From assembly GCA_027061995.1 (NCBI GenBank), contig JAMOUT010000034.1, forward strand, positions 1 through 51,150: a DNA stretch of 51,150 bases, read 5' to 3'. The notes under the pieces are model-generated. The model did not search any database. It was not told the DNA's origin and saw only the letters and a list, made by a program, of their open reading frames with translations. The translations under genes and the position numbers were made by a program. Source of the stretch: Candidatus Aminicenantota bacterium (lineage in GTDB: Bacteria; Acidobacteriota; Aminicenantia; JAMOAD01). Positions 10,008-48,504 of this stretch are shown piece by piece. The first letter of the stretch is position 1. Every line of letters starts with the position of its first letter.

Positions 10008-10068
10008 ATTAATAACAAAAAATCGGGAATATCGTATAAATAAGATACTTAAAATATCGGAGGTGGTG

Positions 10069-12069
10069 ATGAAAAAAACTGCAATAATAATATTTTTATT
10101 TTCTTTATTTTTCTCTTTTCGAGTTTATGCGGATCAAGGAGATTATAAAAATTATACTCGGTTAATAAACTCCTTTAAACAATTAACCAATGCTAAGGAT
10201 ATCTCTATAGCATCCATAGGAGAATCGGATTCCGGTAAAAAACTTTATGTTTTTAAAATAGGGAATGATAAACTTCCCGCTGTTTTTATAGGGGCGAATA
10301 TCTCGGGTTTTGACATGGCTTCAAGTGAAAGCTCTCTGAATCTTGCAAAATATATCATTGAGAAAATCAAGGATAAAGATAAAAATTATACTAACAAATG
10401 TTTTTATATTATACCTGTCCTTAACCCCGATCTGTATTCGGTTTATTTTAAAAAGCCTCTCGAATACAGAGTAAAAAATTATACTCCGAAAGATGATGAC
10501 GGAGACGGATTGATAGATGAAGATCCACCCGAAGATTTAAACAAAGACGGATATATTACTATTATGAGAGTTAAAGCTGTTGATGGAAAATATATTGAAG
10601 ACAAAGGATTCCCCTGCAAATTAAAAAAAGCGAATCCCGTAAAAGGGGAAAGAGGGATTTATAAATTTTATATCGAGGGGATTGATAATGACGGGGATGG
10701 AAAATATAATGAAGATCCGAAAGGGGGCGTAATTATCAATAATAATTTTCCTGTATTATTTAAATACAATAAGAAGTCATCGGGACTTTACCCCGTTTCC
10801 GAAAAAACAACAAAAACCATTCTTGATTTTATTTTAAACCACAAAAACATTTTACTGGCTTATATAATCGACAGAACAAATAATATGATAAAGCTCCCTG
10901 AGCTCGGGAGGACATCAAAACTCGGAGACACAAAAGTAAAAATACCCAAGGGGTTCGGCAAGTTTCTCGGTTTGGATACAACTAAAAAATATGCATTAAA
11001 AGAGCTTGTGAAAATTTTAAAGGAATTGGGGATAGGAAGAGGAATGAATTTAACGGAAGAGATGGTGGCAAGCTTTCTCGGGGTGGTTCCTCCCGCAAGT
11101 GTTGATGCGCATGATTATAAATACTATAAGCAACTTTCAAAAGAATATAAAAAACTTGCAAAAAAAGATAAAGTCAATATTAAAAGGGTTGTAAAAGGGG
11201 AAAAAGACGGCTCATTGATTAAATGGTTTTATTTTAATACGGGAATTTTATCTATAGGGGTTGATATTTGGTCATTACCGAAAGCTGTTAATATTAAAAA
11301 GAAAACCGGTTTAACACTTGAAAAACTAAAAAAAATGAGTTCGGAGGAGTTTTTAAAAATCGATGATAAAGTTCTCGAACAGTTTTTTAAAAAGATGAAT
11401 GTTCCACAGAGTTTTAATATTCAGATTGTTAAAAACATGGTTAAATCAGGGAGAATCACTCCTGAAAAGATGGCGGGCTCTATGGAAAAATATAGTTCAA
11501 AAGCATCAGAAAAAGGGGAAAGTAAAAACCAAAACCTTAAAAACTATATGGAAAAAGAATTGAATGGTGAAGGGGCGATAAAGTGGAAAGAGTTTAACCA
11601 TCCGCAATTGGGAAAGGTTGAAATCGGAGGGATTATCCCTTTTGTTGAAACTATTCCGAGATACGATAAGTTGAAAAAAAATGAAAAACTGATAGAAGAT
11701 TTCTTCAATCTTCTTGTTGCAAAAACTCCGGAAATAAAAATCGAAGGGATTAAAATAATAAAACAAAAAACAGGTGTTTATAAAGTAAAATTTTATATTG
11801 TCAATGAGGGTTATCTCCCGTTTTATCTTAATATGGGAAAAAGAAACAAATATTCAATGCCTATTCTTGTTAAGTTGGAATTACCCAAGGATTCCATTCT
11901 GATAGAGGGTAAAAAGATTAACAGAATATCTGATATCGGAGGAATCGGTTCTGCAAGAGAGATTAATTATCTTATTCTTTCAGGGAAAAACAGGAAAATT
12001 AAAATAAAAGTTCACCATAAAAAAATTACTGATATTGTTCGAACTTTTGATTTGGGAGGTGTCAAATGA
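10069..12069 (+). CDS. Secreted M14-like pseudo-carboxypeptidase
   Basis: A 666-residue exported protein with a clear signal peptide (about 1-22). It is collinear with the active M14 enzyme encoded next, but the catalytic residues are gone. The HxxE zinc motif region reads GANISGFD (Ser79 and Asp82 instead of His and Glu). The third zinc histidine aligns with Arg in YIIDRTNN. The catalytic Glu region reads IGVDIWS. Calcium-type acidic loops are kept (DDDGDGLIDEDPPEDLNKDG and DNDGDGKYNEDP). A long helical insertion (about 370-500) is unique to it. The ATG at 10069 follows GGAGGT; two GTG codons lie just upstream. It probably binds peptides or partners the downstream enzyme. The stop overlaps the next ATG. 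Confidence 0.8.
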   Translation: MKKTAIIIFLFSLFFSFRVYADQGDYKNYTRLINSFKQLTNAKDISIASIGESDSGKKLYVFKIGNDKLPAVFIGANISGFDMASSESSLNLAKYIIEKIKDKDKNYTNKCFYIIPVLNPDLYSVYFKKPLEYRVKNYTPKDDDGDGLIDEDPPEDLNKDGYITIMRVKAVDGKYIEDKGFPCKLKKANPVKGERGIYKFYIEGIDNDGDGKYNEDPKGGVIINNNFPVLFKYNKKSSGLYPVSEKTTKTILDFILNHKNILLAYIIDRTNNMIKLPELGRTSKLGDTKVKIPKGFGKFLGLDTTKKYALKELVKILKELGIGRGMNLTEEMVASFLGVVPPASVDAHDYKYYKQLSKEYKKLAKKDKVNIKRVVKGEKDGSLIKWFYFNTGILSIGVDIWSLPKAVNIKKKTGLTLEKLKKMSSEEFLKIDDKVLEQFFKKMNVPQSFNIQIVKNMVKSGRITPEKMAGSMEKYSSKASEKGESKNQNLKNYMEKELNGEGAIKWKEFNHPQLGKVEIGGIIPFVETIPRYDKLKKNEKLIEDFFNLLVAKTPEIKIEGIKIIKQKTGVYKVKFYIVNEGYLPFYLNMGKRNKYSMPILVKLELPKDSILIEGKKINRISDIGGIGSAREINYLILSGKNRKIKIKVHHKKITDIVRTFDLGGVK

Positions 12070-13760
12070 GGAAAAGAGTTTTATTTTTTGTTTTGACGAT
12101 AATAATATTATTAAGTAGCTTATCTTACTCATTGATTTTAAGATATGACAGATACTATAATTATAAAGAGGTGTTTAATGCTATTCAAAGGATTAAGGCA
12201 AAGTATCCGAATTTCATCAAGATAGAAGTGATAGGGAAAAGTTACCAAGGAAGAGATCTTTGGGCGGTTACGATTAATAATCATAGAACAGGCAAAGCTT
12301 CAAATAAACCTGCCATGTATGTTGATGCTAATATACATGGGAACGAGATTCAGGGAACAGAAGTAACTCTTTATATTATGGATTATCTTTTATCTAATTA
12401 TGGTAAGATAAAAAAAATAACTAATCTTTTGGATAGAGTGAGTTTTTATATTATTCCCATAGTTAATCCTGACGGTAGAGCGGTTTTTATGGATAAACCC
12501 AATACTCCCAGCTCCTCAAGAGTTAATAAAAAACCGATAGATGATGATAAAGATGGTTTATTTGATGAAGATGATTATGATGATCTTGATAAAGACGGAA
12601 ATATTGTTCAAATGAGAAAAAAAGTAACTCCCGGGACAGGTCATTTTAAACTTTCACCTAAGGATCCTCGAATTATGGTAAGGGTGAAACCCGGAGAAAA
12701 GGGGGATTATATGCTCCTTGGGATGGAAGGAATTGATAATGACGGAGACGGAAAAGTAAATGAAGATCCTCTCGGAGGAATAGATATGAACAGAACTTAT
12801 GGTTTTAATTGGATGCCACCTTTTATTCAATGGGGAACCAGCGATTATCCCCTGCAAACTTCGGAAACAGCGGCAATCGGGAGATTTCTTATCTCTCATA
12901 AAAACATAGCGGTCACACAGGATTTTCATAATTCCGGAGGTATGATTCTAAGAGGTCCCGGGGCAAGTAATAAAGGGAGATATCCCTATATGGATATTAA
13001 AGTATATGATTACATAGGAAAAGAAGGGGAAAAATTGCTGCCGGGATATGAATATATGATTAGCTGGAAAGATCTGTATCCTGTGTTCGGAGGATTTAAT
13101 GATTTTAGTTACAGAACCCTCGGGATTCTCTCTTTTACCAATGAACTTTATAAAGCTCAACAAGATTTTAATAAAGACGGGAAAGTAACAAAAGAGGAAA
13201 GGATGAAATGGAATGATGAGATCCTTCATGGCTCGGGATTTGTCAATTGGCACCATTATAAACACCCGCAATACGGAGATATTGAGATCGGAGGTTGGAA
13301 AAAGATGACAACAAGAGTTACACCCGGGTTTCAGCTTGAGGAACTTTGTCATAGAAACGGGGCTTTTGTGATTTTTAATGCATATCATCTTCCGTATATA
13401 AAAATAGAAGAGGTTAAGAAAGAGAAAATAAGAAATAATATATATCGGATAACCGCCCTTTTAATAAACGAAAGAATGATTCCGACGAGAACTTCTCAAG
13501 CGGTTATTCATAATATAGGTAAACCGGATTTTGTGTCAATCAAAGGGGAAAAGATAACTGTTATAAGCGGAGGAGTGGAGACAAACCATCAATTTAAAAG
13601 ATATTTACCGCAAAAACATCATCCCGAGAAAATAAAAGTTAACTCAATAGAGGGGATGGGACACAGATATATCCAATGGATTGTCAAAGGTTCCGGAGAT
13701 ATTTTAATTGTATATAACTCGGAAAAAGGTGGAAAAAAGACAGCTGAAATTAAATTATAA
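12066..13760 (+). CDS. Secreted M14 zinc carboxypeptidase
   Basis: A 564-residue exported metallocarboxypeptidase with an N-terminal signal peptide. Zinc ligands are His91 and Glu94 in DANIHGNEIQG and His288 in TQDFHNSGG. The substrate-binding Asn-Arg pair is in DMNRTYGFNW, and the catalytic Glu360 is in SFTNELY. Between the first two zinc motifs and the third lie acidic DxDxDG-type loops (about 159-180 and 223-235), probably calcium-binding. A C-terminal beta domain (about 450-564) may anchor or bind substrate. It probably cleaves C-terminal residues of extracellular or periplasmic peptides. It is coupled by ATGA to the inactive paralogue upstream. Confidence 0.92.
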   Translation: MRKRVLFFVLTIIILLSSLSYSLILRYDRYYNYKEVFNAIQRIKAKYPNFIKIEVIGKSYQGRDLWAVTINNHRTGKASNKPAMYVDANIHGNEIQGTEVTLYIMDYLLSNYGKIKKITNLLDRVSFYIIPIVNPDGRAVFMDKPNTPSSSRVNKKPIDDDKDGLFDEDDYDDLDKDGNIVQMRKKVTPGTGHFKLSPKDPRIMVRVKPGEKGDYMLLGMEGIDNDGDGKVNEDPLGGIDMNRTYGFNWMPPFIQWGTSDYPLQTSETAAIGRFLISHKNIAVTQDFHNSGGMILRGPGASNKGRYPYMDIKVYDYIGKEGEKLLPGYEYMISWKDLYPVFGGFNDFSYRTLGILSFTNELYKAQQDFNKDGKVTKEERMKWNDEILHGSGFVNWHHYKHPQYGDIEIGGWKKMTTRVTPGFQLEELCHRNGAFVIFNAYHLPYIKIEEVKKEKIRNNIYRITALLINERMIPTRTSQAVIHNIGKPDFVSIKGEKITVISGGVETNHQFKRYLPQKHHPEKIKVNSIEGMGHRYIQWIVKGSGDILIVYNSEKGGKKTAEIKL

Positions 13761-14345: not shown

Positions 14346-15467
14346 TTAACCCTCCATATAAAATTTTATATAATTCGATATCCTATCAATCTTTGCCTTT
14401 GGAAAAGCTTCTTTAAATAATCTCATAATTTTATTAATTCTTTCTCCTGTAATATAAATCTTCCAATAAAATTCATATGAATGATCTTTACTCATAAATA
14501 ATCTATAATAATCCCCTTTCCAATTTTCAAAAAGCTTGAAATCATAATTTTTTAAAACTCCTTTCTCTTTTAGAATCAGATTGATAAAAAAAATTCCCAT
14601 ACTTCCTTTGAGATAGGTGTTATCTTGTTTTATGTTATCATCGTTTTTTATTGTTTTAAGAGGATATTTTTCAGGAAATATTATTTCAAGCGTTGTTTTC
14701 GGAGGGAATCTGTAAATGGTGTTATAGCTTTTCCCATATTTTTTTCTTATGTATTTGATAAAACGGGGACCGTAAACATAAGGGAAGATCAATTGTTCTC
14801 TTATTATTCTCGGATAAGTTTTTATATCACCGTCCGAAGAAAGATTAACAGCATCTTCTATAGTTATTCTCGGATTATCAATAAAAAGATCAAAATTAGC
14901 GATTTTTTCCATATGAATAATCGCATCCCCTTCAAGAAAAGATAATATGGCAAGACTTTTATCATCATATTCGATTCTATCGGGAATAATTTCATCAATG
15001 TTGTATTTCTGTTTTTGAATTATGTGCCACAACTCATGGAAAAGAAGCATTGCTTTTATCTTATTGTATGAAGACGGTCTTTTCCCTTTTATGAAAATCT
15101 CGTTTTTTTCACCTTCCTCATCAAAAAAACCCGCAACATTTTTATTGTATAAAGATTTTTTTATCTTGTATAAATCTATATCTTTATTAACCAGGCCAAA
15201 TACATGAAGTAAGAATACTTCTCGGTTTAATTTTGTTTTTTTTAAATCTCTTTTAATAATCTTTTCTATCTTATCGGCAAACTCTTTGTCCGATAAAAAA
15301 ACAATATGTGGCTTGGGATTAAACTTAATGCCGGCGGTCTTTTCAACAAGAGATATAATCTGTGAGAGAGAGTATCTTTTATATTCCTTTGATGCAATAA
15401 AAAAACTCAAAAAGAATAAAAAAGTGAAAAGCAGGTAAATTTTTCTTGTTTTATGTTTTCCAATCAT
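14346..15467 (-). CDS. Secreted gluzincin-like metallopeptidase, family unknown
   Basis: A 373-residue protein with an N-terminal signal or anchor (about 9-25). A zinc motif HELWH lies at 144-148 (His144, Glu145, His148) and a likely third ligand Glu179 in SFLEGDA, the HExxH...EGDA pattern of gluzincin-like proteins of unknown specificity. The rest is basic and Tyr-rich with no domain I can name. Whether it is an active protease is inference from these residues. It is the first gene of a two-gene unit with efp and has its own promoter. No ribosome binding site is evident before the ATG. Confidence 0.72.
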   Translation of the reverse strand: MIGKHKTRKIYLLFTFLFFLSFFIASKEYKRYSLSQIISLVEKTAGIKFNPKPHIVFLSDKEFADKIEKIIKRDLKKTKLNREVFLLHVFGLVNKDIDLYKIKKSLYNKNVAGFFDEEGEKNEIFIKGKRPSSYNKIKAMLLFHELWHIIQKQKYNIDEIIPDRIEYDDKSLAILSFLEGDAIIHMEKIANFDLFIDNPRITIEDAVNLSSDGDIKTYPRIIREQLIFPYVYGPRFIKYIRKKYGKSYNTIYRFPPKTTLEIIFPEKYPLKTIKNDDNIKQDNTYLKGSMGIFFINLILKEKGVLKNYDFKLFENWKGDYYRLFMSKDHSYEFYWKIYITGERINKIMRLFKEAFPKAKIDRISNYIKFYMEG

Positions 15468-23592: not shown

Positions 23593-25908
23593 CTAATCTT
23601 TAATAACTTCCGATATGATTTTGGACAAACTGTCATATGAATATGGTTTAGACAAAAAGTTAATCCCGTCTTGAATACCTCCCTCGTTAACAAGATAGCC
23701 ATTTGTATAACCTGAGGTAAAAACAACCTTTATATCGGGAAATATCTTTTTAACTTTTGAAATGAATTCTTTTCCGTTCATTTTCGGCATAATAACATCG
23801 GTTAATATCAAATCCACGCCATTCACCTTTTTTATTAAATCGAACGCTTCCTCTCCATTCTCTGCAAATAAAACATTATATCCGAGATCCTTTAAAACAG
23901 TGATTGCATAATTACGAACTTCCGAATCATCTTCTACGACTAAAATGGTCTTACCTTTTTGATGTTTATGTTCATCTTTTTTGTTTTTTCCTTTTTTCAT
24001 ATTGTCCTTATCTTTTAAGTATATCGCTGGAAAATAAATCTTAATTGTTGTTCCTATCTTTTTCTCGCTGTAAAGATAAATTACTCCATTGTGCTGCTTG
24101 ACAATTCCATAAACCGTGGATAATCCCAATCCGGTTCCCCTCCCTTTTTCTTTTGTTGTAAAAAAAGGCTCGAAAACTTTGTTTTTTGTTTTCTCTTCCA
24201 TCCCTATACCATTATCTCTTATTGAAAAACCAACATATTCCCCTGCTGTTAATAATTCCGTCTTTTCATTATAATTTTGCTCAACTATACGATAAAAAGT
24301 TTTTATTATAATCTCTTTATTCTGTTTCTTGCATTCATTTAGAGCGTCTCTTGCATTAGCAACAAGGTTTATAAAAACTTGTTCTATTTGATTTTGATCC
24401 GCTTTTATATATGGAAGATTTTCAGATAATTCTGTTTTTAAATGGATATTTTCCCCTATTAACCTCGTCAATATTTTATTAAGATCATTAATAGTGTCAT
24501 TAATATTAAAGATCGTTGGTTGAGATATCCCTTTTTTGCTTAACAATAGCAGCTTCTTTATGAGATTCTCCGCTTTTTCACTTGATTGTTTGATGACAGA
24601 TATATTCTTATAAACAACTCCTTCTTCGGGTTTGATTTTATTTAAAATAATATCGGAATATCCTTTTATCACTGTTAATATATTATTAAAATCATGAGCA
24701 ATTCCTCCGGCGAAAGTTCCTATACTTCCCATCTTTTGAGAATGTAAGAATTGTTCTTCAAATTGTTTCCTCTTTGTAATATCGAAAAGATAGGCTATTA
24801 TATAATTTTTTTCTTTCTCATTTTCTTTTTCAAGAAAAATATTAGCAAGAGTAATTATCTCTTTTCCATGTTTTGTGACCATTATAATCTCTTCATTTGT
24901 TATTTTACCGGTTTTATTAAGTTTTTTTAATATTATGTTATAGGTTTCTTTATTTTTACATAAATTTTTAAAAGTAACCCTTTGTTGTGATTCTTTAGTA
25001 TTGTAACCGAATAATTTTTCGAAAGTTGAATTATAATCGATAATTTCCCCTTCTGAAGAAGCAACAAAAATCGCACTGACATCTTGTTCAAAAAACCTTC
25101 TGTATTTTTCTTCACTCTCTTTCAAAGCAACAATAGCCATATTAAGTTTTTTTTGCCTTTGCTCTATCTGCTCTATCATATCTCTGAAAGAGCTGTATAA
25201 AATGTCTATCTCATTTTCAACGGTTTCTCCTCTTTTAAAAATTGTGCTGTCGAATGAGAATTCTTTGCTTTTTGATATCTCTTTCGAAATGTTTGCTAAA
25301 TTAAGTATTGGCTCGGTTAAGATTTTTTGAATTTTCATCGTAATCAGATAAATAATAAAAAGCACAATTATAAAGACAAGCATATTATTTAAAATTAATT
25401 TAATAATTCTTGCGGATAAGCTTTCCGTTGATATTATCAATAAGATAGCCCCCCTTCTCTCTTTATTAAAATGAATTGATTTTTTAACAAACATCTCATT
25501 GTTTATTAATAAATACTCTTTTCCGTTAAAATCAATTTTATTGATTTTTTCCTTAATTTTTTCTTTGGTGTTATTAGCGTATTTACTGTAAAAGGAAAAG
25601 ATATTTCCTTTTTTATTGTAAAGAACAGCCCCTTTTATTGTAGGAATCGTTCTAATATTTTTTAATATATTATCCGCTCCCCTTTTATCTTCAAAAATAA
25701 GGGGAGAGATACAGTATTGCCCTATGAGATTTGCTTCCAAAAGAGAATTTTTTATTAATGCGGTTTTGAAAGTTTTAATCGAATAATAAATCCCGAAGCC
25801 CATGCTTATTAATAGCCCTATTAAACTTACAAATAGTATTGTTATTATAAGTTGGGATTTAATCGGTAGTTTTTTAATATTCAAGTATTCAATAAGTTTT
25901 TTTATCAT
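23593..25908 (-). CDS. CHASE8-like hybrid histidine kinase with receiver domain
   Basis: A 771-residue membrane sensor. A first helix (about 18-40), an extracytoplasmic domain (about 41-170) and a second helix (about 172-192) are followed by a HAMP region to about 250, PAS (about 262-380), HisKA with AGGIAHDFNNIL as the phospho-His box, HATPase with NLVANARDAL, DNGIGM and GRGTGLGLSTVYG, and a receiver (about 652-771) with LILTDVIMPKMNG. The sensor module (LIGQYCISPLIFEDKRGAD region) resembles the CHASE8 domain of YfiN diguanylate cyclases. It overlaps yfiR by ATGA, which fits control by that periplasmic protein. The output partner is not in the window. Confidence 0.9.
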   Translation of the reverse strand: MIKKLIEYLNIKKLPIKSQLIITILFVSLIGLLISMGFGIYYSIKTFKTALIKNSLLEANLIGQYCISPLIFEDKRGADNILKNIRTIPTIKGAVLYNKKGNIFSFYSKYANNTKEKIKEKINKIDFNGKEYLLINNEMFVKKSIHFNKERRGAILLIISTESLSARIIKLILNNMLVFIIVLFIIYLITMKIQKILTEPILNLANISKEISKSKEFSFDSTIFKRGETVENEIDILYSSFRDMIEQIEQRQKKLNMAIVALKESEEKYRRFFEQDVSAIFVASSEGEIIDYNSTFEKLFGYNTKESQQRVTFKNLCKNKETYNIILKKLNKTGKITNEEIIMVTKHGKEIITLANIFLEKENEKEKNYIIAYLFDITKRKQFEEQFLHSQKMGSIGTFAGGIAHDFNNILTVIKGYSDIILNKIKPEEGVVYKNISVIKQSSEKAENLIKKLLLLSKKGISQPTIFNINDTINDLNKILTRLIGENIHLKTELSENLPYIKADQNQIEQVFINLVANARDALNECKKQNKEIIIKTFYRIVEQNYNEKTELLTAGEYVGFSIRDNGIGMEEKTKNKVFEPFFTTKEKGRGTGLGLSTVYGIVKQHNGVIYLYSEKKIGTTIKIYFPAIYLKDKDNMKKGKNKKDEHKHQKGKTILVVEDDSEVRNYAITVLKDLGYNVLFAENGEEAFDLIKKVNGVDLILTDVIMPKMNGKEFISKVKKIFPDIKVVFTSGYTNGYLVNEGGIQDGINFLSKPYSYDSLSKIISEVIKD

Positions 25909-26462
25909 TGATTAATAACTTCTCCCGCTCTTAAAAGCAGATAACTTACAGATATTTTACTATCTTTTAAGGACTTATAATTTATCTGAAATCTTATTTT
26001 GTTTTCAAACAAATAAAAGCCTATATGCGCACCTTTGGAAACCAATGATTTGTAATCGCTAATAATGAGAACAGGTTTACTTTTTAACCTTTTTAATGTT
26101 TTATCTATCTTTTTTTTATTATGTTTTTTTATATACAAAATTTGGCATTTCTCGATATTCTGATCGGAGGATGAAATATTAGTTATTTTAACGGGTAAAT
26201 TTTTAATCTTTTTTGCTTTGTAAATTCGGTGAAACATCTTTGTTAATTTTTTATCTCCGTATATGCAAATATTGAATTCTTTTGATTTTTCTAAAAATTG
26301 TTCAGGCCAATCGACAAACAAGGTGAATTTTCCTATCATTGCAGCTTTTACCTCATACTCATCGTATTGAGCATAAAATAAATTGGAGGTAAAAAAAATG
26401 AGGATCAGAATAAGAACAATTTTTATTGTCCTCATTCTGGTTTTTTGTTTCCTGTTTTTCAT
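25905..26462 (-). CDS. YfiR/DUF4154 periplasmic protein
   Basis: A 185-residue exported protein of the YfiR/HmsC (DUF4154) family. After the signal peptide it shows EYEVKAAMIGKFTLFVDWPEQF, FNICIYGDKKL, a CQILYIKKH strand, PVLIISD and a C-terminal VSYLLLRAGEV, all typical of the family. YfiR binds the periplasmic domain of the cyclase YfiN and holds it inactive. Here the adjacent membrane partner is a histidine kinase with a similar sensor. The ATG at 26462 has no ribosome binding site; an in-frame ATG at 26435 would give a more compact signal peptide. The gene lies one base after the TonB receptor stop. Confidence 0.88.
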   Translation of the reverse strand: MKNRKQKTRMRTIKIVLILILIFFTSNLFYAQYDEYEVKAAMIGKFTLFVDWPEQFLEKSKEFNICIYGDKKLTKMFHRIYKAKKIKNLPVKITNISSSDQNIEKCQILYIKKHNKKKIDKTLKRLKSKPVLIISDYKSLVSKGAHIGFYLFENKIRFQINYKSLKDSKISVSYLLLRAGEVINQ

Positions 26463-26463
26463 A

Positions 26464-28593
26464 TTAAAAATATTTTCCCATGCTTAGAATAAACAGTCTC
26501 CCGTATCCGTAAGTGCCTTTCTCGGCCCAACTGTTTCCCGATGTTGCAGGATAAACAATTGCATTATTCAAGAGATTGTAAATGTGAAAATCAAGATAAA
26601 CCCTTTTTAAAAAAAAGTTTTCAACTCTTAGGTTAAAATCAATCTCATAATATGCTTTGGATGGTTGCCCTATTCTTCCTCTTACTAAGTGTTGTTCTTT
26701 ATTAATAATCGTTTCATCCCATAATGTTTTCATCTCCCCCACATATCTCCCTACAAGAGCTATAGAATAATCCTTAAATGAATAATGTATTTTGAGATAT
26801 CCAAGTAATTCGGGGGAATATCCGGGGGAAATATCTTTAAACCCTTTTTCAAGATTTTTCGTTTTCTGATATGAAAGATTCGTGGAAAGGACTAATTCTT
26901 GAATAGGTAAAATTGTTAACCCTACTTCAATCCCTTTGGTTTCCATTTTTCCGCTGTTCGTGGAGTGAATCTCCCATGTTCGGGTTTTAGGATTATAGAT
27001 ATTTCTTGCTACTATAAGATCATCAAGCTTATTTTTATACAAACTTATATTAGCAAAAACGGAGGGGGAGGGAGACAGGATATAATTTAATTCAAATGTT
27101 TCTATATATGCGGGTAATAAAGTTGTTCCTTGATTAAAAAGTTGTGATATGTTTTGCATTATTGATGGATTTTTAATAGCTTTACCATATAAAAATTTAA
27201 GAGAATGAAAATCGGAAGGGCTGTAAATCAAGGCAAATCTCGGAATAAACTTGATATTTTCCTGAGAATATTCCCCCGTTATATCTTTTTCTACCGGAGT
27301 TTCTTTTGCCCTGTGAATGATAAGTTTATATTTATGTAATTTTTCAAGCCTGAAACCCGTTACTATCTTTAATTTATCGGAAAAATTATAATTTGCTTGC
27401 GAAAAAAAAGCATCCGAAATTATATCATCAGGGAAAACATCTTCTGTGTTTGTATATTCTAAGGGATATATAGGATAATCATAACTTTTGTAAAGATAAA
27501 AGATATTATGTCTTATAAAACCGGAAACCATATTCAGCTTATCATTCGGTTTGTATGTTATGTTCAGCTCAATTTCATCTGATAAACTATTGTTATAGTT
27601 TGTTGCATATGAATCTTTTTGAAGTATTTCATATTCCCAAAAGAAAGAATTATAAAGGTATGTAAATTTCCCCGTTATTGACAAATTTTTTAAGATTTCT
27701 TTCCTATACTTCAGGAAAATTGTTGTTGATCTATTGTTAAAAAATGTCCCGGGAGGGTAAGAGGGAAGTCCGTCAAAAACCCCTTTTCTTGTATCTGAAT
27801 AAGTAAAGTCAAAATGCAGGTTCTTATATTCACCCGAGAAATTAAAATATTTTCTATCGTTTTTCAACATCCCTTTTGTCCTTGATTCCATTGATAATCC
27901 CGCCCATTTAAGCATTTGATAATTATCAGTAAAACAGTTAAAAGATTTGTCAATCCCATTATCCCCGTATAAGGAGGTATTAATTGTAAATTTAAAATCA
28001 TCACTTACTTTTGAAACTCTCAAGAATAATTTTTTATATTTATCATTGCCAAAAGAAATGGAAGCCATGCTAATCGGAGTATTATTCGTAATAATATTAA
28101 CAGCACCGAAAAAAGCTCCGCTTCCGTATAAAACAGATATGGGTCCTCTGACAACTTCGATTCGGTCTATTGCTTCGACCGGAATATTTATTTTTGCGAG
28201 AGAATAATCCGAATATGAATCTCCCACTTGATTAACCCCATTAACCAGTATAACTATATCATTAAAAACACCCGGGGAAAAAAATCCGCGGATACCGAAA
28301 TTCTCGGAGCCAAGCCAATAATAATCATTAATCATGTAAAAACCCGGAATATTTTGAAGAATATCGGATAAAGATTTATATCCCTGTTTTTTTATCTCCT
28401 CTCTGTTTATAAGAACAATGCTTGCGGGAATTTCTCTAATTTTTTCCTCGACCTTGCTTGCTGTTGTTACTTTAATGTTCATCAAATCCTGAAGAGACAT
28501 TTTAAGAAGTTTTTGTTGATCCTGATAATCATATGCTTGAATTTTTATCCCTATTAAAAGGTAAAGAATAATTATAAAAAGATTCCGTTTCAT
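26464..28593 (-). CDS. TonB-dependent receptor-like outer-membrane protein
   Basis: A 709-residue receptor. Signal peptide about 1-20; a segment SLQDLMNIKVTTASK precedes the plug domain (REIPASIVLINREEI, SLSDILQNIPG, VEVVRGPISVLYGSGAFFGAVNIIT). About 480 residues of barrel strands follow, with NLLNNAIVYPATSG near the end and a terminal LSMGKYF, so it ends in an aromatic residue as outer-membrane barrels do. The ATG at 28593 has an AGGAGG site five bases upstream. It is the first gene of a three-gene operon with yfiR and the kinase, so it may sense or deliver a ligand for that pathway. The substrate is unknown. Confidence 0.9.
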   Translation of the reverse strand: MKRNLFIIILYLLIGIKIQAYDYQDQQKLLKMSLQDLMNIKVTTASKVEEKIREIPASIVLINREEIKKQGYKSLSDILQNIPGFYMINDYYWLGSENFGIRGFFSPGVFNDIVILVNGVNQVGDSYSDYSLAKINIPVEAIDRIEVVRGPISVLYGSGAFFGAVNIITNNTPISMASISFGNDKYKKLFLRVSKVSDDFKFTINTSLYGDNGIDKSFNCFTDNYQMLKWAGLSMESRTKGMLKNDRKYFNFSGEYKNLHFDFTYSDTRKGVFDGLPSYPPGTFFNNRSTTIFLKYRKEILKNLSITGKFTYLYNSFFWEYEILQKDSYATNYNNSLSDEIELNITYKPNDKLNMVSGFIRHNIFYLYKSYDYPIYPLEYTNTEDVFPDDIISDAFFSQANYNFSDKLKIVTGFRLEKLHKYKLIIHRAKETPVEKDITGEYSQENIKFIPRFALIYSPSDFHSLKFLYGKAIKNPSIMQNISQLFNQGTTLLPAYIETFELNYILSPSPSVFANISLYKNKLDDLIVARNIYNPKTRTWEIHSTNSGKMETKGIEVGLTILPIQELVLSTNLSYQKTKNLEKGFKDISPGYSPELLGYLKIHYSFKDYSIALVGRYVGEMKTLWDETIINKEQHLVRGRIGQPSKAYYEIDFNLRVENFFLKRVYLDFHIYNLLNNAIVYPATSGNSWAEKGTYGYGRLFILSMGKYF

Positions 28594-41136: not shown

Positions 41137-42888
41137 ATGAGACGAAGGGGATTAATTGTTTTATTATTTTTGTTTTTATCCGTAACCCTTTTTGCTGAAG
41201 AATACTTTCCTCTGTCTAAGATAAAAGAGGGGATGGTATTGACAGGAAAAACAGCGTTGAAAGGGGAAAAATTATCTGAATTTAAAGTTAGGGTTTCCGG
41301 TATTCTTGAAAATGTTTATCCGGGTCAAAGCTTTGTCATAGGTGAAATCCTCGGGGATTATTATAAAGAAACGGGTGTTATTGCCGGTATGTCGGGTAGC
41401 CCTGTATATTATGATGGCAAGATAGTCGGTGCCGTTTCTTTTTCCTTCTCTTTTACAAAACGGGCGATTGCGGGAATAACCCCTTATGAAGAGATGATAA
41501 AGATGGTGAAAAAGAGTGCTCCGCAGGTTCATATTGATATAAATTTTAAATCGGCTTTTGAAAAGAAGATTTATAATTCACTATTTAAAATTCTTAAATC
41601 AAAGATAAACACAAATATAAATTATAAAATACCTTTAAGATTGTCGGGGTTTAATTATACCTTTGTTAATAAAATCTCAAAGGATTTCTCCGTTTTAAAT
41701 ATGATGGCTGTTCCCGCGGGAAGAGGAAAGATAAAAATTCCCGAAAAAATAAATATTGATGATGTTAGTTTAAAAGACGGTGATCCGATAAATGTTCATC
41801 TTGCAATCGGTGATTTGGATATTTCCGCGGGAGGGACTGTTACACATGTTATCGGTAATAAATTTTATGCATTCGGTCACCCGTTTTTCAATCTTGGTAA
41901 AGTTGCGTTTCCCGTATCCAAGGCAAGTGTAATAGATGTTGTCCCCAATTATCAATCCTCTTTTAAATTATCATCCATAGTTAAATATGTCGGTAAGATA
42001 ACAGAGGATAGAACTTCCGGAATAAAAGGGGAGATAGGAAGTTTCCCCGAACTTATTCCCATAAAAGTTACGATGAATTATCTGAAACCAGTTGAATTTG
42101 AAGTGAAAATTGTTAAAGACAAATTATTAACCCCTCTTCTTGTTTATAATGTTATCGCAAATATAATTTCAACAGAGGCAAAAGCTTACGGGGAGCTTTC
42201 CTTAAAAGTAAACGGAGCCGTATATCTTAAAAACGGAAAATCGGTTAGATACGATGACATTTTTTCAAGTGCGAATTCCGGAGGAGATCTTTCGATGATG
42301 TATGCTTCCTTAGCATATATATTAACGGATAATCCTATTAAAAATTTTCAGATAGATAGGATTAAGCTTGAAATCACCCCTTTTGAGAAAAACAGAGTTG
42401 CTCGGCTTAAGAGAGTGATAGCGTCAAAATACAGAGCAAAACCGGGGGAGAGAGTATCTTTTTCATTGTATTATAAACCTTCCGACGGGAAGATTATGAA
42501 AGAGGATATATCGGTTCCTATTCCTCCAATTAAGAAAGGCTCTAAATTATATATTTTAATAGGAGATTCCAAAACATTACAAAAATTTGAAACTCGAACC
42601 TATAAAGACGGGTTCAGATTTCCTTCGGATGAGCCGTCTCTTTTGAGAGCTTTGAATAATTTGAGAAAAAACAATATTATATATTTTAAAGTTATGACTT
42701 TGAAAAAGTCGGTTTTTATCAATGGTTATGATTATTCGGGAATCCCCCCTTCATTCTTTTCTTTCATTCTTCCGGCTCAAAAAGATTATAATTATACTTA
42801 CCCGAAAGTTACGACATTTAAAGATTATGCTCTCCCGATAGATTATAAATTCGAGGGAAGCGCATTGATTAAATTGGAAATAGAATAG
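41137..42888 (+). CDS. Secreted SpoIVB-type (S55) serine peptidase-like protein
   Basis: A 583-residue exported protein. After the signal peptide (1-20) it has the S55 core with GMSGSPVYYDGKIVGAV; Ser86 is the likely nucleophile. FGHPFFNLGKVAFPVS further on supplies the conserved His region. A C-terminal part (about 400-583) of beta character is not recognised. SpoIVB acts in spore-former sigma signalling, but related S55 proteins also occur in non-sporulating diderms with unknown roles. Nothing else here suggests sporulation. It is followed by a propeller gene after 11 bases, which suggests a joint function. Whether it self-cleaves is unknown. Confidence 0.85.
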   Translation: MRRRGLIVLLFLFLSVTLFAEEYFPLSKIKEGMVLTGKTALKGEKLSEFKVRVSGILENVYPGQSFVIGEILGDYYKETGVIAGMSGSPVYYDGKIVGAVSFSFSFTKRAIAGITPYEEMIKMVKKSAPQVHIDINFKSAFEKKIYNSLFKILKSKINTNINYKIPLRLSGFNYTFVNKISKDFSVLNMMAVPAGRGKIKIPEKINIDDVSLKDGDPINVHLAIGDLDISAGGTVTHVIGNKFYAFGHPFFNLGKVAFPVSKASVIDVVPNYQSSFKLSSIVKYVGKITEDRTSGIKGEIGSFPELIPIKVTMNYLKPVEFEVKIVKDKLLTPLLVYNVIANIISTEAKAYGELSLKVNGAVYLKNGKSVRYDDIFSSANSGGDLSMMYASLAYILTDNPIKNFQIDRIKLEITPFEKNRVARLKRVIASKYRAKPGERVSFSLYYKPSDGKIMKEDISVPIPPIKKGSKLYILIGDSKTLQKFETRTYKDGFRFPSDEPSLLRALNNLRKNNIIYFKVMTLKKSVFINGYDYSGIPPSFFSFILPAQKDYNYTYPKVTTFKDYALPIDYKFEGSALIKLEIE

Positions 42889-42899
42889 AGGTGAAATAG

Positions 42900-44855
42900 A
42901 TGAAAAAAAAGATTTTTTTATCAATTATTTTGTTGGTTGTATTTAATCTGTCATTATTTTCGATAACAACCGTTGAAAAAAAGTTTAATTCTCTTTCGGA
43001 TTATATCAAAGGTCATTTTAAAGGGATATCAATCTCGAAAAACGGGAAATTATCTCTTTCCTATGAGATAAAGGATTTGGTAAAACCTTCGGAAAATTTG
43101 GTGTTTTCAGCTGCGACTGATCAAAACGGTGTGATATATCTCGGAACAGGCCATAGTGGTAAACTTTACAAGATACAGGCTGGAAAAATATCGGAGATAT
43201 ATAAAACCGGAGAGCCGGATATTTTCGCTTTAACCGTTGATAACGGGGGAAATCTTTATTTTGCAAGTTCTCCCAACGGAAAAATCTATAAAATGGATAA
43301 AAAGGGAAAGGTTAAAGAGTTTTTTGATTCAAAAGACAGATTTTATTGGCAGCTTGAGGTGAACGGGGGCAAACTGTATGTTGCGGCGGGGGGAAACAGA
43401 GGTAAACTATATATAATTGATCTTAAAACAGCTTTATTATTAAAAACATATGAGATAGATGAACTTAATGTTTTCAAACTGTTTTTAAAAGGGAATAAAA
43501 TATATATAGGGGGAAGTAATAAAGGCACCGTATATGAGATAAAAGGGGAGAATAAAGAATCAATTTTTCAGGCTGATAAAAGGGAGATCAAAGGGATTTT
43601 CGTAAATGATAAGGATGAGATTTTTATTGCGCTCGGTGGTAGTTCCTTATCTAAAGAGAGCACAAGAAACAGAATAATTATCAGAAAAACCGTTTCTTTC
43701 GGGAAAATTGTCAAGATTAATAAAGACGGGGAAACAGAGGTCATATGGAAATCTAAAAATGAGATGCCTTATGATTTGACAGGTATGGGAAACAGAATTT
43801 TATGGGTCACCGGTAATAAAGGGAGAGTGTATTCCTATAATAATGATAAGGTATTATTGATTGGTGAATTAAAGGGTGAGATAGGTGTTTCATTAAAGAG
43901 ATACGGGGATAAATTCATAGGTTTATACAATTTTCCTGCCGGAGTGTTTGAGATAGATAATAAACTTATAGGAAAAGGGATATATACTTCGGATATTATT
44001 GATACGGGAACACTATCAACTTATGGCAATTTTTATCTTAAAGCAAAAGGGGAAGTTTTTGCATCGTATCGCGGCGGCAATACGGAAGAACCCGATAACT
44101 CTTGGACGGAGTGGAGCCCCTATATGAAAAATTATTTTAAAATATCATTGAATAAAAAAAGATTTTTTCAGATAAAAATTAAGATGGAAAAAAAGGTGGA
44201 GATTCCTTCTCTTGAAGAGATAAGATTTTTTTATCTTCCGGTTAATAGAAAACCGATTATAGAACGATTAATTGTTGACGGATTACAAAAACGGACAAAA
44301 AAGAACTCTTTTTTCTCAAAGTCTTCCCGTATTAAAAATAGTGGTAATAAATTTATCACCATAAGTTATAGAGCCATTGATGCCGACAAAGATAAACTTA
44401 TTTTTTCCCTTTTTATCAAAAAAAACGGAACTAAAAAATGGGATCTTGTCAAAAAAGATTTCTATGATAATAGATTTGTTCTTGACCCTACGAATTATGA
44501 AGAAGGCACCTATGTTGTGAAACTTGTTGCATCGGATTTACCTTCAAATCCTCAAAATATCGCAAAATCCTCTTATAAAATTTCCAATCCCTTTATCATT
44601 GATTATACTTCGCCTGAAATAGTATTCGAACAAAATACGGGGAATAAGATAAAATTCAGAGTAAAAGATAATTTATCCTTTATATCAAAGGTATTCTATC
44701 ATACGGGAGATAGAAAATGGAAAATATTATTTCCCGATGACAGATTGTTCGATTCAAAAGAGGAAACCTTTACAATTAATAAAAAAAGCTCTAAAATATA
44801 TATTATTAAAGCTGAAGATAAAAGAGGTAATACGAGAGTGAGGATTTACAGATAA
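42900..44855 (+). CDS. Secreted beta-propeller-type protein
   Basis: A 651-residue exported protein. Signal peptide about 1-21. From about 70 to 365 there are repeated blade-like units of the form GxIYLGTGHSGKLYKI, GNLYFASSPNGKIYKM, GKLYVAAGGNRGKLYII and NKIYIGGSNKGTVYEI, spaced about 40-45 residues, so a propeller of at least six blades is likely. The part from about 455 on looks like Ig-type beta domains (DADKDKLIFSLFIKK, YTSPEIVFEQ). It is probably a periplasmic scaffold or ligand-binding protein. It lies between the S55 and TPR genes, overlapping the latter by one base. Confidence 0.78.
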   Translation: MKKKIFLSIILLVVFNLSLFSITTVEKKFNSLSDYIKGHFKGISISKNGKLSLSYEIKDLVKPSENLVFSAATDQNGVIYLGTGHSGKLYKIQAGKISEIYKTGEPDIFALTVDNGGNLYFASSPNGKIYKMDKKGKVKEFFDSKDRFYWQLEVNGGKLYVAAGGNRGKLYIIDLKTALLLKTYEIDELNVFKLFLKGNKIYIGGSNKGTVYEIKGENKESIFQADKREIKGIFVNDKDEIFIALGGSSLSKESTRNRIIIRKTVSFGKIVKINKDGETEVIWKSKNEMPYDLTGMGNRILWVTGNKGRVYSYNNDKVLLIGELKGEIGVSLKRYGDKFIGLYNFPAGVFEIDNKLIGKGIYTSDIIDTGTLSTYGNFYLKAKGEVFASYRGGNTEEPDNSWTEWSPYMKNYFKISLNKKRFFQIKIKMEKKVEIPSLEEIRFFYLPVNRKPIIERLIVDGLQKRTKKNSFFSKSSRIKNSGNKFITISYRAIDADKDKLIFSLFIKKNGTKKWDLVKKDFYDNRFVLDPTNYEEGTYVVKLVASDLPSNPQNIAKSSYKISNPFIIDYTSPEIVFEQNTGNKIKFRVKDNLSFISKVFYHTGDRKWKILFPDDRLFDSKEETFTINKKSSKIYIIKAEDKRGNTRVRIYR

Positions 44856-45520: not shown

Positions 45521-46610
45521 TTTTTTCATTCCTACAAAAATAATTTTCGGTAAAGGAAGAATAGGGGAGTTGTCTGAAAACATACCCTCTGGTTATAATA
45601 ATATTCTTCTCGTTACGGGGAAAAAATCCGCTAAACTTAATGGTGCACTTGAAAAAATCAAATTTTTATTAAAAGATAAAAATATCACTGTTTTTGATGA
45701 AGTCGAGGAAAATCCATCCTTTGATATCCTTGAAAAAGGGAGAGAGATTGCGAAAAAGAATAAAGTCGAGTTTATAATCGGTGTCGGGGGAGGTTCTCCG
45801 ATGGATGCCGCAAAAGGGATTGCTGTTCTGACAAATAATGAAGGTTCCATGCGGGATTATATGAAAGGGAAAAAACCCGTAAATAAGATTCTCCCTATAG
45901 TATGTATTCCGACAACCTCGGGAACAGGGAGTGAAGTTACCCCTTTTGCTGTTTTTACGGATCCTGAAAATGAAGACAAAGGGGGATATGCAAATCCCGA
46001 TATATTCCCCGTTTTTTCGATTATAGATCCCGAATTAACATACACTATGCCGAGAAATGTTATTATTAATACCGGCATTGATGCTTTTACCCATGCATTG
46101 GAGGGATACTTTTCCACGAAAGCAAGTATTTTAAATGATTATTTGGCTGTTCACTCTATAAAGATTATTGCGGGTAATATTATTGATGCGGCGGAAAAAG
46201 ATAATCTTGCCATGGACAGAATTTCTTATGCCTCAATGGTTGCGGGTATAGTTATAGCAAATGCCGGAACGCTGCTATTACATGCGGCGGGATATCCTTT
46301 AACCGTTTATCATAAAATCCCTCACGGACTTGCAAATGCGATTTTACTTCCCGAGTTTATTCGGTTTTTGAAGAGAAAAGAAGTCTTGGTGGAAAAGATA
46401 GAGATAGTTGAAAATATTTTTGAATCCATGGGAGGAATCGAAAAATTTTTAAACGAGATAGGGATTAAAACCAAACTTTCCGCTTATGATATAAAAAGAG
46501 AGGAGATCAAGAATTTTGTCGAAAAAACGATTCATAAAAAGAATCTTTTAATTACCCCTGTCAAAATCAATGAAAAGGATTTGTATGATTTTTATGAAGA
46601 AACATTTTAA
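45507..46610 (+). CDS. Iron-containing alcohol dehydrogenase
   Basis: A 367-residue type III alcohol dehydrogenase. The NAD-binding part has GVGGGSPMDAAKGIAV and PTTSGTGSEVTPFAVF. Metal ligands are visible as Asp and His in GIDAFTHALEG, His in LLLHAAGYPL and His in IPHGLANAILL. The enzyme probably interconverts an alcohol and aldehyde in fermentation; substrate unknown. The start is ATG 45507 or 45510, inside the end of the TPR gene. An upstream GTG (45489) is less likely, since the family usually begins at NFNFFIPT. Confidence 0.93.
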   Translation: MMNFNFFIPTKIIFGKGRIGELSENIPSGYNNILLVTGKKSAKLNGALEKIKFLLKDKNITVFDEVEENPSFDILEKGREIAKKNKVEFIIGVGGGSPMDAAKGIAVLTNNEGSMRDYMKGKKPVNKILPIVCIPTTSGTGSEVTPFAVFTDPENEDKGGYANPDIFPVFSIIDPELTYTMPRNVIINTGIDAFTHALEGYFSTKASILNDYLAVHSIKIIAGNIIDAAEKDNLAMDRISYASMVAGIVIANAGTLLLHAAGYPLTVYHKIPHGLANAILLPEFIRFLKRKEVLVEKIEIVENIFESMGGIEKFLNEIGIKTKLSAYDIKREEIKNFVEKTIHKKNLLITPVKINEKDLYDFYEETF

Positions 46611-48504
46611 TTTAATGATAAAAAGCATTCATATAAAAAACATATTATTAATTATTGTATTAATCGGAAGTATATTTGTTATTTCATGCAGAAGAATGAT
46701 AAAGGTGGAATTTCCCGGAGGAGTGAAGATAGAATCCCCGATAATAAAAGTAGGGATAGGGGAGAATCTTCAGAAAACAAGAATATCATCCACAATGGGG
46801 ATGAAGATATATAAAGGTGGTGAACTTTTAACTAATCTGAATAAAGGGAATATTTTTATTAAAAATCTGAGCAGATCCATTAGTGTTTCGATAGGAGATA
46901 CAAAACATAGAATAATGTCAACGATATATATTGTTCCTAATAGATATTCATACCTCAAATATGATAATAAGGAATACAGAGGGATAATAGAGATTCTGTT
47001 AACGGATGAAGGATTTAATGTTATAAATATATTAAATATTGAAGAATATTTAAAAGGGGTTGTTCCTTATGAACTTCCGCCGAACAGATATTCCGAGATT
47101 GAAGCGCTTAAAGCTCAAGCTATAGCGGCGAGAACATATACGCTTTATACTATTGGAAAATACAGGGAGAAAGGGTTTGATATATGTTCAACCATAGCTT
47201 GCCAGGTTTATAATGGTAAAAAAGGGGAAACACCTCTTTCCAATCGTGCGGTTGAAGAGACGAGCGGACTTGTTATAGTCTATAATAACAAATTAATTCC
47301 CGCTTTATATAGTGCTTCTTGCGGAGGGTTTACGGAAAACATTGATAATGTTTTTGCGGGTGAAAAATCTTCTGTTTTGACAGGTAAGCCTTGTGATTAT
47401 GATAATATTAGATTAAATTGGATATATACTGATAATTTTAAACCTTATTCGGTGGAAGAAAATCTTGCAATTGTTTTAAAAATAGCAAAAGAGAGTATTA
47501 TTAGAAAAAACACTCTTCTGATAGACGGAAAAACAGCAAATTCAATTTTGGAAGGGATTTATAAAATAACAGGCAAAAAGGGTGATTTTTTTCAAACATC
47601 TAATATCTCGATATCTTCTGTAATTTTAAAACTGAATGAAACTTTTTCCTTTTATAAAAAGGGTGTTAAATATATAAAAGGTTTTGAGATTCCTCAGGAG
47701 CTTATGTTTAAATATGGCAAAAAGAAAAGTTTTATTATGGTTCATCTGTATAAAGAGGGGATACTGAAAAATTATAATAAGCTTGATGTTCCTTTAAACA
47801 TAAAACAATTTATCAGATTCACAATGAAACTTTTGATTAAATACTATAATGTTTTTGAGAAGAGTAAATATGTATCTTCCGAATCAAAAACCATACTATT
47901 GAAAAACAGCTTTAATAAAGAGGAGAGATACTATCTTGGCGGGGCAATTTTTTACAGAAAAGTTAATAATAAATTGTTTCCCGCTCATATGTTATATCTT
48001 ACGGGAAAAGAGCAACTCAAAATGTTTGCAATAAAAGACAGAATAAAAATATTGATAGTGGATTATCCCCGTTTTTCACTGTCCCCTAAAAATATTTACC
48101 CTTTATGGCATAAGGTATATAAAAGAAGCAAGCTTGAAAAAATAATCAAATCAAGGTTAAGCCTTGATTCCCTTAAAGATATTGTTCCTCTGAAAAGAGG
48201 GGTTTCCGGTAGAATTAACAGATTAGAGATTCAGGGAAAAAGGAAAAGTTTTTTCCTTTTCGGAATACAGATTAAAAAAACATTGAATTTGAAAGATAAT
48301 AACTTTGTTATAGACAGATGGTTTGATGGTCGGAATATAAAATATTTCACATTCATAGGGAGAGGTTGGGGACATGGTGTTGGGATGTGTCAGGTAGGTG
48401 CATACGGAATGGCATTACAGGGAAAAGATTATCGAGATATACTTAAATATTATTATACAGGGGTTAATATCATAAGATACGATAATTTGATGAAAAACAA
48501 ATGA
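46585..48504 (+). CDS. SpoIID/LytB-domain lipoprotein
   Basis: A 639-residue protein. Hydrophobic segment LLIIVLIGSIFVISC ends in a lipobox-like VISC, so it is probably a lipoprotein. The SpoIID core is clear: YLKGVVPYELPPNRYSEIEALKAQAIAARTYTLY, FDICSTIACQVYNG, ASCGGFTENI, and at the end GRGWGHGVGMCQVGAYGMALQGKDY. Between them lies a large insertion (about 290-560) not typical for SpoIID. Related proteins cleave stem-peptide-free glycan strands. ATG 46585 has an AAAAGGA site five bases before it; ATG 46615 would give a shorter n-region and 46570 is also open. Sporulation is not implied. Confidence 0.88.
   Translation: MIFMKKHFNLMIKSIHIKNILLIIVLIGSIFVISCRRMIKVEFPGGVKIESPIIKVGIGENLQKTRISSTMGMKIYKGGELLTNLNKGNIFIKNLSRSISVSIGDTKHRIMSTIYIVPNRYSYLKYDNKEYRGIIEILLTDEGFNVINILNIEEYLKGVVPYELPPNRYSEIEALKAQAIAARTYTLYTIGKYREKGFDICSTIACQVYNGKKGETPLSNRAVEETSGLVIVYNNKLIPALYSASCGGFTENIDNVFAGEKSSVLTGKPCDYDNIRLNWIYTDNFKPYSVEENLAIVLKIAKESIIRKNTLLIDGKTANSILEGIYKITGKKGDFFQTSNISISSVILKLNETFSFYKKGVKYIKGFEIPQELMFKYGKKKSFIMVHLYKEGILKNYNKLDVPLNIKQFIRFTMKLLIKYYNVFEKSKYVSSESKTILLKNSFNKEERYYLGGAIFYRKVNNKLFPAHMLYLTGKEQLKMFAIKDRIKILIVDYPRFSLSPKNIYPLWHKVYKRSKLEKIIKSRLSLDSLKDIVPLKRGVSGRINRLEIQGKRKSFFLFGIQIKKTLNLKDNNFVIDRWFDGRNIKYFTFIGRGWGHGVGMCQVGAYGMALQGKDYRDILKYYYTGVNIIRYDNLMKNK

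Follow-up and report, generated by a model that had tools for sequence, protein, structure and literature searches.

The window, that is, the whole stretch of 51,150 nucleotides analysed here, carries at positions 23593–28593 three adjoining minus-strand genes for a TonB-dependent outer-membrane receptor (TBDR), a DUF4154/YfiR protein and a hybrid histidine kinase (Table 1). The positions and products given by the initial annotation were verified, as were the single base that separates the TBDR and YfiR genes and the ATGA overlap that joins YfiR to the kinase. The receptor starts with the ATG at position 28593, with AGGAGG just 5' of it, and an alternative, longer TTG start is unlikely. The flanking genes on both sides run on the opposite strand, so the three genes form a self-standing unit. 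Elsewhere in the window, two adjacent overlapping genes (10063–13760) both match the zinc carboxypeptidase family Peptidase_M14, and a 373-aa ORF (14346–15467) has no Pfam match at 1e-5. A SpoIVB-type S55 peptidase domain and a SpoIID domain were found at 41137–42888 and 46570–48504, respectively, in this acidobacterial genome; the 651-aa ORF lying between these two genes (42900–44855) has no Pfam match.

Table 1. Genes and features of the receptor–YfiR–kinase operon in the window.
Feature	Position	Strand	Remarks
TonB-dependent outer-membrane receptor (TBDR), 709 aa	26464..28593	-	Operon gene 1; Plug and barrel, without STN
TBDR pre-plug segment LLKMSLQDLMNIKVTTASKVEEKIREIPASIVLIN	28405..28509	-	Motif marking YfiR-linked receptors
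YfiR (DUF4154) periplasmic protein, 185 aa	25905..26462	-	DUF4154 2e-35; YfiR fold
Hybrid histidine kinase, 771 aa	23593..25908	-	CHASE8, PAS, HisKA, HATPase_c, receiver (Pfam)
CHASE8 periplasmic sensor of the kinase, carrying F72	25441..25764	-	6.8e-11; AF2 pLDDT 90

The receptor matches the Pfam plug (6.6e-24) and barrel (2.9e-24) domains, and the nearest solved structures to its plug are those of the colicin I receptor and BtuB. The NCBIfam model NF053590 (TonB_dep_TOL0244) matches the plug region only, with 81.2 bits (6.6e-23), below its curated cut-off of 645. No STN domain was found in a Pfam search with matches up to E = 1 considered, and signalling of the FecA type was rejected for this receptor on that ground.

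The second gene product scores 122 bits (2e-35) against DUF4154 (PF13689), for which the curated Pfam cut-off is 24.9. Its N terminus is hydrophobic and resembles a signal peptide. The match to NF053591 (YfiR_like_TOL0243) reaches 108 bits (4.2e-31), below the curated cut-off of 125. As a single sequence the protein has no true match in the PDB, but the family profile matches the PDB entry 4yn7 with 6.6e-13. The AF2 model (pLDDT 90) retrieved P. aeruginosa YfiR structures as its top 15 Foldseek matches; ABC substrate-binding proteins came next among the folds, followed closely by the L-Trp-bound 3lft. In alignment with P. aeruginosa YfiR, Cys66 and Cys106 fall at the positions of Cys71 and Cys110, and the second cysteine pair is absent. 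In Yersinia HmsC the first pair, Cys87-Cys126, is required for function (PMC5550408). A 2012 proposal named three hydrophobic residues of YfiR; according to the alignment, the window protein does not conserve the one at position 183.

The initial annotation had described the sensor of the kinase as CHASE8-like. The profile agrees with it: the CHASE8 match (PF17152), which falls in the periplasmic loop, scored 39.3 bits (8.2e-10) with Pfam and 43.3 bits (6.8e-11) in a whole-genome scan, above the cut-off of 27. The AF2 model of residues 1–243 (pLDDT 90) gave a PAS/Cache-like periplasmic domain, and the LapD-type output domain CdgS9, WalK and CitA are among the solved structures closest to it in fold; by sequence, the sensor has no match in the PDB. 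On the output side, Pfam places HisKA, HATPase_c and receiver domains after a PAS domain, without GGDEF. The phosphorylation motifs are intact, with the AHDFNN His box, the N, G1 and G2 boxes, and the Asp in LTDVIMP. The score against NF053592 (HK_near_YfiR_like) is 114.7 bits (4.4e-33), below the curated cut-off of 194.

The genome contains one DUF4154 gene, one CHASE8 gene, eight GGDEF genes, four ExbD genes and seven plug domains. The four ExbD genes indicate that a TonB system exists. CHASE8 was found in none of the eight GGDEF proteins; the N terminus of one of them (L007) is cut, but the CHASE8 scan covered the whole genome. With a single YfiR, a single CHASE8 gene and CHASE8-free GGDEF proteins, the window YfiR therefore has no separate YfiN. 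The other arrangement envisaged at the outset, of unlinked genes with YfiR paired to a diguanylate cyclase located elsewhere, is thus not the one found. The name “phosphorelay” is tentative for this system because a search for Hpt domains in the approximately 95% complete genome found no dedicated Hpt: the only two matches lie in CheA-type proteins.

Gene order in other genomes, the survey called for by the initial annotation, was followed in 199 Acidobacteriota genomes and then in 80 added named loci from Acidobacteria, Ignavibacteriae, Nitrospirae, Verrucomicrobia, Desulfobacterales, Planctomycetota, Armatimonadota and others. Neighbourhood classes were assigned from domain matches on all six-frame ORFs. 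The linkage is far beyond chance. In the 199 genomes, a CHASE8 gene lies on the same strand within 3.5 kb of 49 of the 56 DUF4154 genes, and for 47 of these it is within 260 bp. Over the many phyla sampled, 110 of the 133 YfiR genes (a few contigs being counted twice) adjoin a CHASE8-kinase gene, 77 with a TBDR and 33 with no TBDR on the same strand inside 5 kb, some of the latter lying at contig ends. The existence of such TBDR-free loci means that the receptor is not obligatory. A CHASE8-GGDEF gene stands beside YfiR in 5/133 cases, two of these with a TBDR; a TBDR without a same-strand CHASE8 gene accompanies YfiR in 9 or 10 of the 133, and a receiver-GGDEF gene lies near YfiR in 20. The order TBDR-YfiR-CHASE8-GGDEF occurs at L123, L168 and L227, the last from the window's own class, and L208, of the same family as the window, possesses the full kinase triad with a YfiR 50% identical. 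On the YfiR tree, which is poorly resolved, the output label switches at least two and up to five times. Judging from this survey, each of the three parts recombines, with YfiR as the common element, CHASE8 as the constant partner of YfiR and an output that can be exchanged.

Some loci depart from the simple triad. Tandem YfiR genes or domains (two or more), or two successive TBDR-YfiR pairs, were observed at L218 (6207–7986), L226 (6525–7751) and L213 (5909–9321); two YfiR per kinase have reportedly been described once, in Thauera. At L100 and L120 a TBDR-YfiR pair is followed by a downstream CHASE8 gene on the opposite strand, and the set therefore stays together even when it is not co-transcribed.

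Evolutionary distances were compared in 66 non-redundant kinase triads, in which all values share the species history. The correlation was highest between YfiR and CHASE8 (r = 0.71), followed by YfiR and plug (0.49). Between CHASE8 and the kinase core, which belong to one polypeptide, it was only 0.21, although common descent by itself should lift this within-protein value too. The YfiR–kinase core correlation was 0.18 and dropped to 0.05 with CHASE8 held constant; that of kinase core and plug was 0.17.

A residue-level signal was found in the sensor itself. Mutations in P. aeruginosa place the proposed docking site for YfiR within the AAVVF motif of YfiN, which has a central Phe (PMC3375315). 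The window kinase has SPLIF at this place, and its F72 aligns with the Phe of the E. coli YfiN AAVVF. This docking Phe is present in 135 of 142 YfiR-paired sensors versus 9 of 15 CHASE8 sensors that have no YfiR in their vicinity (Fisher 3e-4); for the adjacent Asp, paired and unpaired sensors did not differ (p = 1). Given the linkage, correlated evolution and docking residue, the window YfiR may dock on its CHASE8 partner and, by analogy with the P. aeruginosa system, repress it. The initial annotation had YfiR controlling the kinase: YfiR and CHASE8 do evolve as a unit, while the direct contact and the sign of the control are presumed.

The receptors linked to YfiR were also found to share a distinctive N-terminal segment ahead of the plug. 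They start with a sequence resembling LSLEELMNxEVTSVSK, the counterpart of which in the window TBDR is MSLQDLMNIKVTTASK. In the 199 Acidobacteriota genomes, 36 of the 44 strong matches to this motif lie within 6.5 kb of a YfiR gene. When the loci that seeded the model were removed, the figure was 20/28 (chance about 0.1%). In the remaining receptors of the window's own genome with a readable N terminus, the start resembles a canonical TonB box (ETIVVTAS and similar). Judging from the sequence, the pre-plug segment may act as a TonB box of a special kind or touch YfiR, and it is a candidate contact for TonB or YfiR.

In three loci (L239, L242 and L243) a substrate-binding protein of approximately 310 aa, PF04392 (TrpX-like), takes the place of YfiR between the upstream TBDR and the CHASE8 kinase, and most of the junctions overlap by four bases. 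With this protein as query, 20 more loci were examined, 18 of them with room on the contig. A CHASE8-like sensor protein adjoins the PF04392 protein in 17 of these 18, three of which lack a kinase-profile match. A TBDR is present in 13 of the 23 PF04392 loci, several of them then having a receiver-GGDEF gene. The CHASE8 scores of the linked kinases are marginal (22–31 bits), and L295 has no detection. At the docking position these sensors have T, A, I or S, with F in 0/19, which could reflect family descent since they are divergent CHASE8 relatives. These TBDR-PF04392-CHASE8-like operons are a sister version of the YfiR triad, and YfiR may be a one-lobe descendant or counterpart of a PF04392-type binding protein, placed between receptor and CHASE8 sensor. 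Further operons of a TBDR, a PF04392 protein and a CHASE8-like hybrid kinase were seen at L286, L287, L293, L295, L297, L298, L300, L301 and L303, often with a receiver-GGDEF gene next.

We consider it rather likely that the operon encodes one signalling chain from the outer membrane to the cytoplasm, in which the receptor controls YfiR and YfiR sets the kinase. The gene content, domains, linkage, correlated evolution and docking residue on which this reading rests are directly observed. In the model, YfiR would be exported to the periplasm, dock on CHASE8 around F72 and set the kinase activity, by analogy with the repression of YfiN. The TBDR in the outer membrane would in turn control YfiR. 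This step could take two forms: either the ligand-loaded or TonB-pulled receptor would use its periplasmic face and pre-plug segment to bind YfiR, or it would import a putative ligand that YfiR senses. The released kinase would autophosphorylate and pass the phosphate to its own receiver and on to a presumed unlinked regulator. The output probably often returns to c-di-GMP, since a gene for a receiver-GGDEF protein neighbours the locus in many relatives.

Other readings of the same locus were weighed. The TBDR could be an ordinary transporter, YfiR, as a one-lobe relative of ABC substrate-binding proteins, binding the imported solute and carrying the signal to CHASE8 with no need of a TBDR–YfiR contact. 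The PF04392 protein, a full binding protein, does fill the YfiR position before a CHASE8-like kinase, in the three initial loci as in 17/18 others and with a TBDR in 13/23, and substrate-binding proteins, closely followed by the L-Trp-bound 3lft, are the next folds to the YfiR model. The YfiB pocket of P. aeruginosa YfiR moreover accepts L-Trp and vitamin B6, but the binding is weak, with affinities of tens of mM (PMC4887326), and the conserved pre-plug motif of YfiR-linked receptors points less to plain transport than to a special TonB box or a contact between proteins. We regard this relay by a ligand as somewhat unlikely.

It is more improbable still that the TBDR is a co-transcribed target or passenger, with YfiR and the kinase alone sensing the redox or envelope state and regulating the receptor. 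Such a role would fit the occurrence of TBDR-free YfiR-kinase pairs, the responsiveness of HmsC/YfiR to periplasmic redox (PMC5550408) and the first cysteine pair kept in the window YfiR. It accords poorly with the YfiR–plug distance correlation (0.49 versus 0.17 for kinase core and plug), with the TBDR-YfiR pairs that have no same-strand CHASE8 (L041, L042, L047 and L075) and with a pre-plug motif that tracks YfiR. As for the idea that three unrelated envelope genes are neighbours by chance or for house-keeping reasons, both surveys (49/56 and 110/133) and the distance correlations contradict it, and it was rejected as having next to no likelihood.

If the favoured signalling chain is extended to the binding-protein operons, a general, hitherto undescribed mode of TBDR signalling may be tentatively envisaged: a receptor would act on a periplasmic adaptor of substrate-binding-protein fold (YfiR or PF04392), which would dock on a CHASE8-type kinase, and the output of the kinase would often feed a receiver-GGDEF protein. 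On this view, YfiBNR would belong to a wider receptor–adaptor–CHASE8 family as one of its branches, YfiB having taken over from the receptor. Exchange of YfiR for a full binding protein, with the matching absence of the Phe, offers a natural test of the residues that fit YfiR to CHASE8.

The window operon resembles the YfiBNR/HmsCDE systems of Pseudomonas, E. coli and Yersinia (PMC2837407, PMC3375315, PMC5550408) in having YfiR beside a CHASE8 membrane protein, and in the YfiR fold, one cysteine pair, the docking Phe and an outer-membrane third component. It differs from them in its output, a hybrid histidine kinase instead of GGDEF, and in its third gene, a TBDR instead of the OmpA-like lipoprotein YfiB. 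The replacement of YfiB by the receptor as outer sensor had been suggested by the initial annotation. As to position, the TBDR holds the place of YfiB in dozens of loci across phyla and this substitution is widespread; as to function, sensing would proceed through a putative contact with YfiR.

The pairing of YfiR with a kinase in place of a cyclase is not new. In their 2012 paper, Malone et al. presented a modular YfiR-YfiN[PAS] core, predicted histidine or hybrid kinase outputs in distant species and included the acidobacterium Ellin345 among the distant homologues aligned (PMC3375315). The window shares with those modules the YfiR gene adjoining a CHASE8 kinase gene and the conserved docking residue. 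It differs in its receptor: the main text of that paper makes no mention of TonB, and the distant operons are described there only as lacking YfiB. In the main texts of the open-licence papers searched, none linking a TBDR to YfiR was found, and both the TBDR in the YfiB position and the binding-protein variant appear to be undescribed in papers. The NCBIfam models NF053590, NF053591 and NF053592 cover the same three kinds of protein and, by name and numbering, form such a neighbourhood; all three proteins of the window operon score under the curated cut-offs.

The TBDR-PF04392-CHASE8-like operons share the three-part plan, the gene order and the tight junctions of the window, but have a full ABC-type binding protein and no docking Phe. 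The signal sensed by YfiBNR is poorly defined, and the ligand-gated receptor present here makes the input searchable. As in FecA-FecR, a TBDR would signal inward across the periplasm, here judging from the genes. Unlike FecA, the window receptor has no STN domain, and its partners are YfiR and a kinase rather than an anti-sigma factor. If the chain works as we propose, a receptor-to-kinase route would be added to the known receptor-to-anti-sigma route.
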